From positions 1-32,456 of IMG/VR virus record IMGVR_UViG_3300028563_000056: 32,456 nt of DNA; one strand, 5' to 3'. Under the pieces are notes generated by a model that worked only from the letters and a program-made list of their open reading frames with translations, was not told the DNA's origin and did no database searches. A program made the translations under genes and the position numbers. Positions 29,269-32,456 of the stretch are shown in pieces. Position 1 is the stretch's first letter. Each line of letters opens with the position of its first letter. The DNA is from a virus.

Positions 29269-29305
29269 GTCGCCAGGCCGCCCAGTATGTACGAGGCCAG
29301 GCGAC
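29269..29305 (-). promoter_or_regulatory. 5' leader hairpin of the leftward transcript
   Basis: GTCGCCTGGCC and GGCCTGGCGAC (minus-strand sense, 29305-29295 and 29279-29269) pair as an 11-bp stem with one T-T mismatch around a 15-base loop. With a start near 29309, the hairpin would begin within the first few bases of the leftward message and end 18 bases before the first start codon. It could stabilise the message or control translation. The pairing is visible; the function is inferred. Confidence 0.45.
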
Positions 29306-30776: not shown

Positions 30777-30850
30777 ACGCCGTAGCCTTCGTCGCCCTCT
30801 TCACGGCGGCCGCCATCGCCTTCTCACTCGTCGACATACTTTGCACTTGA
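30773..30850 (+). CDS. 25-residue single-span membrane peptide
   Basis: GTG start at 30773 in a GTGA overlap, 25 codons. The peptide is hydrophobic almost throughout (A-V-A-F-V-A-L-F-T-A-A-A-I-A-F-S-L-V) and would span a membrane once. Its 3' end lies inside the 94-bp duplicated cassette: the last 15 codons and stop are encoded in that repeat. Its function is unknown. Confidence 0.5.
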   Translation: MNAVAFVALFTAAAIAFSLVDILCT

Positions 30851-30897
30851 CATATACCGTGACTCGACTACTCTACTAATCAGGAGGACATCATGAC
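30804..30897 (+). repeat. 94-bp promoter/ribosome-site cassette, copy 1
   Basis: This segment recurs at 31215-31308 with only two differences (A to G at offset 35 and at offset 72). It includes the end of the 25-residue gene, a TTGACA promoter, the leader, AGGAGG and the first five bases ATGAC of the next gene. Copy 1 is probably the ancestral one because here the upstream half is the real 3' end of a gene. Confidence 0.9.
30847..30874 (+). promoter_or_regulatory. Rightward promoter in cassette copy 1
   Basis: TTGACA (30847-30852), 16-base spacer and TACTCT (30869-30874), followed after seven bases by AGGAGG (30882-30887) and ATG at 30893. The transcript leader would be very short, about ten bases. 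The -35 overlaps the stop codon of the 25-residue gene. Confidence 0.6.
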
Positions 30898-31078: not shown

Positions 31079-31290
31079 CCGGTCATTGCCGGGCCGTGGC
31101 TGACGTGTCATGCGCGGCACGGGCATGCGTCTCTGGGCCAGTCGGCCTTGGCCTCGACACGCCCGTCGGCGGCCTTTCCGGCCTGGCCATAATGCTGCTT
31201 GGGGCCTTGCTGCTCGGCGGCCGCCATCGCCTTCTCACTCGTCGACATGCTTTGCACTTGACATATACCGTGACTCGACTACTCTGCTAA
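31075..31290 (+). CDS. Small membrane protein, C-terminus encoded by the duplicated cassette
   Basis: A 71-residue reading frame with GTG start at 31075 (GTGA overlap). It has one hydrophobic stretch near residues 34-49 (L-S-G-L-A-I-M-L-L-G-A-L-L-L-G) after a Cys/Ala-rich head. The final 25 residues come from cassette copy 2 read in a frame different from copy 1, so they are probably an acquired tail and not original. An alternative frame is poorer. Real but possibly degraded. Confidence 0.45.
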   Translation: MTGHCRAVADVSCAARACVSGPVGLGLDTPVGGLSGLAIMLLGALLLGGRHRLLTRRHALHLTYTVTRLLC

Positions 31291-31308
31291 TCAGGAGGAC
31301 ATCATGAC
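31215..31308 (+). repeat. 94-bp promoter/ribosome-site cassette, copy 2
   Basis: Duplicate of 30804-30897, shifted by 411 bases, with G at 31249 and 31286 instead of A. It carries the 3' remnant of the 25-residue membrane peptide gene without the rest of that gene, then the promoter and ribosome site for the next gene. This marks it as the derived copy. Confidence 0.9.
31258..31285 (+). promoter_or_regulatory. Rightward promoter in cassette copy 2
   Basis: TTGACA (31258-31263), 16 bases, TACTCT (31280-31285), then AGGAGG at 31293-31298 and ATG at 31304. It is identical to copy 1 in both boxes and spacing. Confidence 0.6.
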
Positions 31309-31564
31309 CAAGACGTTTGCGTTACTCGGACTCGTTCTCTCCACGGCGTGCGCTGCGGAGCAACCTCGGACCTACACCCAATGGGAGGTGGTGTCGGTAG
31401 ACGCCAGGCTCAATGCTGGGGCTGGGGGCCTGCGGGTCGCTGACATCTGCGACGAGCAGACCTCGGACGAGGGTAACCGCCTCGTGTGCATCGACCGGGC
31501 TCGTCAGTTCCAGGCTGAGGACGGCGTGCAATATGCAGTGGTGGCGGAAGAGGTGTCGCCGTGA
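31304..31564 (+). CDS. Small exported protein, possible lipoprotein
   Basis: An 86-residue protein, ATG at 31304 with AGGAGG. The N-terminus has a short signal sequence: M-T-K-T, hydrophobic F-A-L-L-G-L-V-L, then S-T-A-C16, a near-lipobox lacking the usual Leu at -3; alternatively signal peptidase I could cut after A-C-A. The mature part has two more Cys and a strand-rich acidic sequence. Envelope location is likely. Only copy 2 of the cassette precedes it. Confidence 0.65.
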   Translation: MTKTFALLGLVLSTACAAEQPRTYTQWEVVSVDARLNAGAGGLRVADICDEQTSDEGNRLVCIDRARQFQAEDGVQYAVVAEEVSP

Positions 31565-32052
31565 TTACCTACAGCAAGTTCCGTCCCTCGGGCTTCGACA
31601 CGGCCGGCCTGAACCTTCCGGAGCGGCAAGAGTGGCTCGTGGCGCCATGCGGTCGCAATCGCGATTCCTCGGTGCTGGACGAGAGCAACTTTGAGGCGTG
31701 CCTCACTGGGCTCGGACAGGAGGGCGAGGATGTCGAGGTGCATCGCTTCGGTCACTGGGCATGCGGATGGTTCGAGATCATTCTGGTGCGCCCTGGCAGC
31801 GCGGCAGAGGTGGACGCCCTCGACACAGAGAGCGCGCTTGCTGACTATCCCGTGCTGGACGACAGTGACTACTCGGAACGGCTGGAAGTGGCGGCCGGGA
31901 AAAGCTGGGCCGAATTCGGTCAGCGTGGCAGGTTCGAGTACTACCGGAAGCATGCTTCGGACTTCTCGTTCCGCTGCTTCTCCGACATGCTCGGATGCCT
32001 TCGAGGCAAGTTCTTTGCTGGCGATACCATGTCGTTCGCGGAGGGCACGTGA
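31561..32052 (+). CDS. Soluble protein with H-W-x-x-G-W-F-E-I-I motif
   Basis: A 163-residue protein with GTG start at 31561 (GTGA overlap). The centre reads V-H-R-F-G-H-W-A-C-G-W-F-E-I-I-L-V-R-P, followed by A-L-A-D-Y-P-V-L-D-D-S-D-Y-S. I recall this pair of blocks from small hypothetical proteins of plasmids and phages, without a known activity. The C-terminus is aromatic and helical with three Cys in total. It is the longest gene in the rightward block. Confidence 0.75.
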   Translation: MITYSKFRPSGFDTAGLNLPERQEWLVAPCGRNRDSSVLDESNFEACLTGLGQEGEDVEVHRFGHWACGWFEIILVRPGSAAEVDALDTESALADYPVLDDSDYSERLEVAAGKSWAEFGQRGRFEYYRKHASDFSFRCFSDMLGCLRGKFFAGDTMSFAEGT

Positions 32053-32213
32053 ACCCGCTCGTTCTGGTCAACCCGACCGACCGAGACTGGACCAAGGGCC
32101 GCTACGTGCTGGCCTTCGGAGCCTACGGCTGGACTCGCCTCATGGTTTGGGCGAGCAGTCTGGAAGACGCGCTTATTGAACAGGGCATGCGCGCCCTTTC
32201 GGTGACCGCGTGA
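32049..32213 (+). CDS. Small protein, unknown
   Basis: A 54-residue protein with GTG start at 32049 (GTGA overlap); an earlier frame start would extend far into its neighbour. It begins with N-P-L-V-L-V-N-P-T-D-R-D-W and continues Y-V-L-A-F-G-A-Y-G-W-T-R-L-M-V-W-A, a strand and helix mix rich in aromatics. It leads by GTGA overlap into the repeat gene. No family recognised. Confidence 0.6.
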   Translation: MNPLVLVNPTDRDWTKGRYVLAFGAYGWTRLMVWASSLEDALIEQGMRALSVTA

Positions 32214-32456
32214 CCTCCTCAGGCTGCTCGGACTGCTCGGGCTGCTCGCGCTGCTCGGACTGCTCGCGCTGCTCGGACTGCTCGCGCTGCTCGTACTGCT
32301 TGGACTGCTCGCGCTGCTCGCGCTGCTCGGACTGCTCGGGCTGCTCGGGCTGCTCGTACTGCTCGCGCTGCTCGGGCTGCTCGTACTGCTCGGGCTGCTC
32401 GTACTGCTCGGGCTGCTCGTACTGCTCGCGCTGCTCGTACTGCTCGGACTGCTCAG
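32210..32456 (+). CDS. Cys/Ser tripeptide-repeat protein (X-C-S)n, open at window edge
   Basis: GTG start at 32210 in a GTGA overlap, then V-T-S-S and 26 consecutive tripeptides X-Cys-Ser with no stop until the edge. X is Gly (7), Asp (6), Arg (7) or Tyr (6), always encoded by GGC, GAC, CGC or TAC; the only deviation is Leu for Ser in repeat 9. The DNA is a perfect 9-bp tandem array with constant TGCTCG. Every third residue is Cys, which could bind metal, form disulphides or stack in a solenoid. I recall similar low-complexity C-S-x proteins in phages, but no known function. Confidence 0.75.
   Translation, partial: MTSSGCSDCSGCSRCSDCSRCSDCSRCSYCLDCSRCSRCSDCSGCSGCSYCSRCSGCSYCSGCSYCSGCSYCSRCSYCSDCS

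Follow-up and report, generated by a model that had tools for sequence, protein, structure and literature searches.

The pentapeptide repeat is a right-handed quadrilateral beta-helix, and the antifreeze protein of Tenebrio is a beta-helix with 12-residue turns in which every third side chain points inward. Phage genes for pentapeptide and hexapeptide solenoids are common and mostly unexplained. The phage repeat described here, a Cys tripeptide (C-x-x) array, replaces such solenoids in front of the same C-terminal modules and has a similar exposed alphabet, which suggests one shared rod job. Nothing on this C-x-x array family was found in the literature searched for tripeptide or CxxC repeats in phages.

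The window analysed is a complete virus record of 32,456 bases, and the Cys-Ser-X array (32225..32456, + strand) runs to its right end, where it stops because the contig stops; as there is no record beyond the window, the array past the right edge cannot be seen and its end lies outside the record. The open-ended reading frame (32210..32456, +) starts with a GTG at 32210, matches phrog_15341 (E 2.6e-8) and reads VTSSG(CSX)n, that is, VTSSG followed by 26 Cys at exact three-residue spacing from position 32225, so that the protein is one-third cysteine within the array. Tandem Repeats Finder reported a period of 9, 26.3 copies and no indels over 32218–32454 with a score of 285, compared to a score of 51 for the only other tandem array in the window. 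The description of 26 uninterrupted tripeptides in the initial annotation holds for the Cys at every third residue and for the lack of indels, but there are 25 full 9-bp units, the 26th is cut (TGC TCA G), and a single unit (32297..32305, +) is the variant C-L-D, encoded by TGC TTG GAC. Three of the nine nucleotide positions vary among the full units: bases 1 and 2 of the third codon (G/C/T and A/G), and one C-to-T change that gives the single Leu. The X codons are limited to GAC, GGC, CGC and TAC, corresponding to the units CSD, CSG, CSR and CSY. Since Cys codons make up 2.4% of the codons over the six frames of the window, 26 Cys in a row at a fixed phase are not a product of chance.

Relatives were sought by a pattern scan of viral contigs followed by reading by eye, which separated true array proteins from simple repeats; of the 120 pattern hits, many turned out to be simple repeats without relation to the family (poly-Cys, CSG arrays) and were left out. 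A family profile was built from an alignment of five array proteins. The search of other phages for such Cys arrays, as proposed initially, was successful: the profile identified at least 374 relatives in viral contigs, along with 36 loci in GTDB genomes, of which the clear ones are mostly alphaproteobacterial and some are prophages. In complete viral members an N-terminal module (e.g. with the motif W-x-D-x-N-G-N-x-C-S-V-E-Y-F-G-S-E-E-A-A) is followed by about 9 to 60 units, and a linker then leads to the C-terminal module. In PHROGs, the N-terminal part together with the array is phrog_15341 and the commonest C-terminal part is phrog_31265, both without an assigned function. Pfam and NCBIfam gave no match for the window or family proteins, and a Pfam search of the window ORF and four relatives at E up to 5 returned none either, PF00805 with its pentapeptide A(D/N)LXX units included. 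Two cultured phages carry the array, Vibrio phage 1.238.A (gp68) and Flavobacterium phage FL-1.

Several further proteins were noted. Five chromosomal or MAG sequences (L241, L243, L245, L246 and L248) have irregular CxxC arrays with a YCFGCVGL- or FGCxxLR-type tail; these look like cellular relatives in style and are perhaps another group of Cys solenoids. Two Gemmatimonadota MAG contigs (L247, L256) encode short proteins in which a CxxC array comes after a KL-x-LSLDDLRVE leader, so that they resemble modified-peptide precursors, and a Prevotella MAG (L237) encodes an apparently exported, lipoprotein-like protein with C-x-x arrays in separate blocks. In L307, L313, L173 and the FL-1 record (L347), the N- or C-terminal module lies in another frame than the array; such frame splits, found in or near a minority of arrays, are either sequencing errors or real frame changes.

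Several other frames are also stop-free through the window array. As the repeat itself leaves them open, a stop-free frame alone is weak evidence of coding, and it is the relatives that point to Cys-Ser-X as the probable coding frame. The 100 sampled loci use 14 synonymous forms of the Cys-Ser unit, a count that takes in the final base of the third codon and includes both TCN and AGY serine; examples are TGC TCG, TGC TCC, TGC TCT, TGC TCA, TGT TCG, TGC AGT and TGT AGC. Within one locus, about 95% of the Cys-Ser units share a single form. The variety across loci means that the peptide, not the DNA, is conserved, whereas the near-uniformity per locus indicates that units spread by copying inside a genome while selection between genomes acts on the peptide, which makes this a clean natural example of such copying with selection at the protein level. 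The initial annotation had read the repeat as protein-coding, and this conserved Cys-Ser peptide, written in different synonymous units, bears it out. The open frames and the lack of any synonymous variation among the window units would also suit a non-coding 9-bp microsatellite, or translation in another frame (Leu-Leu-Gly/Ala/Val on the + strand, Gln-X-Glu on the − strand). That reading is very unlikely, because across all 14 forms the relatives keep only the Cys-Ser-X reading and they carry homologous N- and C-terminal modules in frame with it; a simple microsatellite was rejected on the synonymous re-encoding across loci and is strongly disfavoured.

The second variable residue, X2, is restricted at the codon level: base 2 is a purine in 2957 of 3013 units and base 3 a pyrimidine in 2992 of 3013 (98% N-purine-pyrimidine overall). 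The residues used are D, G, R, Y, N and H, and E, K and hydrophobic residues are nearly absent. The arrays evolve faster than their surroundings. Two loci (L145 and L158) without a single difference in 1500 bases downstream and 373 bases upstream nevertheless possess 36 and 41 units, respectively, a difference to which assembly error may contribute, and in locus pairs with flanks near 86% identity the arrays are no longer alignable.

The family has long, uninterrupted C-x-x arrays with X1 mostly Ser/Thr and X2 drawn from NRY codons, and the window copy resembles it with its 26 Cys and its X2 codons GAC, GGC, CGC and TAC. The family has three types of N-terminal module, of about 30 residues or more, and complete viral relatives (L173 excepted) have about 30 or more residues before the array; the window copy has no such module and only the five residues VTSSG. 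A module hidden upstream was considered and rejected, as the upstream frame has none and the 54-aa frame there does not match the family profile. The C-terminal modules of the family are of the WHTC/HCRAGW, GCFxG or WPV-HxQIGC type, and the C-terminus of the window copy lies off the contig. Judged on its sequence, the window array is of the family kind, whereas full membership of the whole gene is not proven.

Upstream of the array is a run of small genes, all on the + strand. The first (31304..31564, 86 aa) has an AGGAGG ribosome site and, by eye, a lipoprotein-like hydrophobic N-terminus with a Cys; the LSTAC in this N-terminus resembles a lipoprotein signal. It is followed by a 163-aa phage protein without assigned function (31561..32052; phrog_4313, E 1.5e-7), by the 54-aa frame (32049..32213), for which we found neither relatives nor a family profile match, and by the array frame. 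GTGA stop/start overlaps at 31561, 32049 and 32210 link the four frames into a chain; the last of them (32210..32213) places the start of the array frame on the stop of the 54-aa frame (translational coupling) and confirms the coupled GTG start that had been claimed. The run is preceded by a 99-bp leader (31210..31308, +) with a TTGACA box, AGGAGG and ATGAC, which is the second copy of a leader found at 30799–30897 in front of the gene at about 30893. Both copies are 96% identical and the TTGACA box lies within the shared stretch; a sigma-70 scan of the duplicated leader called no promoter, and an Rfam search gave no informative result. The genes likely form a coupled operon behind the duplicated leader.

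Sequencing of the right side had been suggested initially; other contigs of the same phage do not extend it, as the three metagenome contigs that are 99.5–100% identical to the window (L348, L349 and L350) end at 29276, 29938 and 26669, all before the array. More distant relatives of the window phage have no array in their records or fetched regions, and none was found in the fetched flanks of the 18 viral-contig relatives of the 163-aa phrog_4313 protein (0/18). These contig ends, none of which confirms the junction, would be compatible with an assembly artefact, in which the contig end is misjoined and the array comes from another phage in the sample; the missing N-terminal module fits such a misjoin, and short-read contigs do break in such arrays, which are found at an open contig end in 16 of 80 family hits. 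The junction, however, falls inside the third consecutive GTGA overlap, GC does not change (0.63 for the coupled genes as for the window as a whole) and no long repeat that could mislead an assembler is present at the left junction, leaving only a slim chance of a misjoin.

The initial annotation had called for structure prediction, and the AlphaFold models of two relatives (L013 and L068) answer this in part: the terminal modules are confident, and the arrays are of low confidence (under 50). In the low-confidence array of L068, bridges at 101, 104, 107 and at 113, 116, 119 give a 12-residue pattern, which is a hint only. Foldseek and VIA returned no informative match for either model, and the top match in BFVD (56% identity over 68 columns) appears to be the FL-1 protein, judging by its 74 residues. 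The best PDB match of the family profile is the Tenebrio antifreeze protein (1EZG, E 3.3e-5) over nearly its whole length, with a bias of 42.9 bits, so that the match may be largely one of composition. Periodicity along the arrays gives at most a weak hint of 12-residue turns: Tyr at X2 recurs at a spacing of four units (1.41×, z 3.4), and like charges tend to avoid spacings of four and eight units, but each of the two effects is small and was picked among many lags.

Vibrio phage 1.238.A gp68 has been deposited as an insect antifreeze protein with IPR016133, and together with the 1EZG match this could be taken to mean that the family binds ice. Ice binding is highly improbable and was rejected, as the array has no Thr-Cys-Thr motif (Cys is preceded by D/G/R/Y and followed by Ser) and the window ORF and four relatives have no match to Pfam at E up to 5. 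The geometry of the antifreeze beta-helix is nevertheless relevant to the orientation of the cysteines. The initial annotation had placed the thiols on one face; an outer face is not supported, and the Cys more likely form the core, because every third residue of that beta-helix points inward.

The main argument for a solenoid comes from the modules that follow the arrays. When viral loci were collected with the WHTC/HCRAGW domain alone, a C-x-x array preceded the domain in 70 of 80, and the other 10 are truncated, frame-split or unparsed. The same domain is found after about 45 pentapeptide units, a Pfam-confirmed solenoid, in a protein of the Bordetella plasmid pA (WP_306230003). The GCFxG domain of L065 follows repeats of the YdcK/hexapeptide type in Bacteroides, Bacillus and Chryseobacterium phages (E 3e-5 to 9e-3), cultured ones among them, and pentapeptide repeats precede the WPV-HxQIGC domain of L250 (and, by eye, of L095) in Caulobacter, Acinetobacter and Manatee Spring phages. 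All 119 units counted in four such pentapeptide arrays have G, D, Y, R or C at i+2, which is close to the X2 alphabet of the tripeptides. As at least three C-terminal modules are common to C-x-x arrays and solenoid repeats, both would do the same structural job. The solenoid raised in the initial annotation is thus the likeliest form, given this module sharing and the 1EZG profile match, and the fold of the array itself is what we infer from them.

A thiol- or metal-binding array would be a different use of the same residues: a very long metallothionein or poly-CxxC binder of zinc or iron-sulphur, in which clusters hold the chain and titrate metal or oxidants during infection. Cys at one-third of all residues in an endless CxxC spacing speaks for it, as do zinc-binding CxxC proteins among the weak PDB profile matches, but these are far weaker than the antifreeze match, and neither Pfam nor NCBIfam gave a match to a metallothionein-like family. 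The narrow choice of residues at X1 and X2 speaks for a folded rod instead, as do the C-terminal modules shared with pentapeptide and hexapeptide solenoids, which need no metal. We therefore consider metal binding unlikely, though worth bearing in mind.

The neighbours of the family genes bear on the role of the rod. The majority had no assignable name; the others are single-strand annealing proteins, DnaB/primase, repressors, methyltransferases and nucleases, and virion genes are very scarce among them. The viral relatives that were read have no obvious export signal. The surface-coating repeat suggested initially is therefore unlikely, and replication, recombination and regulatory neighbours fit an early cytoplasmic role. 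Such neighbours would also fit a rod that mimics DNA to block a host nuclease, gyrase or defence protein, for which the interchange of C-x-x arrays with pentapeptide solenoids is a further argument and MfpA a precedent, as this pentapeptide protein binds GyrB by mimicking DNA (PMC10886550). The arrays are, however, close to neutral, with a net charge that averages −0.10 per unit (62 of 91 negative), unlike acidic mimics, the window array has 7 Arg against 6 Asp, and PADLOC gave no match, which makes a DNA mimic quite unlikely.

On balance we favour, by a modest degree, the array as the repeat body of a phage scaffold protein, a narrow beta-solenoid with inward Cys that acts early and in the cytoplasm. 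Each turn of the C-x-x chain would take up about four tripeptides (12 residues); the Cys side chains would stack on the inside to form the core, and the pairs S-D, S-G, S-R and S-Y would lie on the outside. Exchangeable N- and C-terminal modules would cap the rod in complete relatives, and its length changes quickly by gain or loss of 9-bp units that never shift the frame. Expression is probably early in infection, and in the reducing cytoplasm a stable, protein-binding rod of variable length may present its surface to a host or phage macromolecule, as pentapeptide-repeat proteins do; what the rod binds is a guess. A rod with a pure cysteine core would, if confirmed, be an unusual protein architecture, and the exchange of array and solenoid provides a system for tests in phages that are in culture (Vibrio phage 1.238 and Flavobacterium phage FL-1).

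Compared to described systems, the window array is closest to phrog_15341, with which it shares a C-x-x array of Ser and Asp/Gly/Arg/Tyr; complete relatives match this family with E values down to 7e-26, whereas the window ORF, at 2.6e-8 and without the N-terminal module, matches through its repeat only. Among cultured phages, gp68 of Vibrio phage 1.238.A (YP_010093418.1), which belongs to a series of small coupled genes that lie downstream of an RNA polymerase gene, has the C-x-x array of the family but a different N-terminal module, K, E, W and F as additional array residues and a short C-terminus. Flavobacterium phage FL-1 (KY421186) has a C-S-X array and a WHTC domain but these are not annotated as one gene, and the record has the array in one frame and most of the C-terminal domain in another. 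The Tenebrio protein is likewise Cys-rich with every third residue pointing inward, but it is a secreted, disulphide-bonded insect protein with a Thr-Cys-Thr ice-binding face, and its inward residues are not all Cys. The pentapeptide-repeat proteins of phages and plasmids (WP_306230003, Caulobacter phage Jess A) have the same C-terminal modules, arrays of variable length and a similar exposed alphabet, but differ in their five-residue unit and their Ala/Leu core without Cys. Tentatively, the C-x-x arrays might constitute a new class of beta-solenoid with an all-Cys core (one per three residues), perhaps redox- or metal-switchable and interchangeable in phages with pentapeptide and hexapeptide rods, which would present a similar outer alphabet (Ser with Asp, Gly, Arg and Tyr) on different scaffolds.
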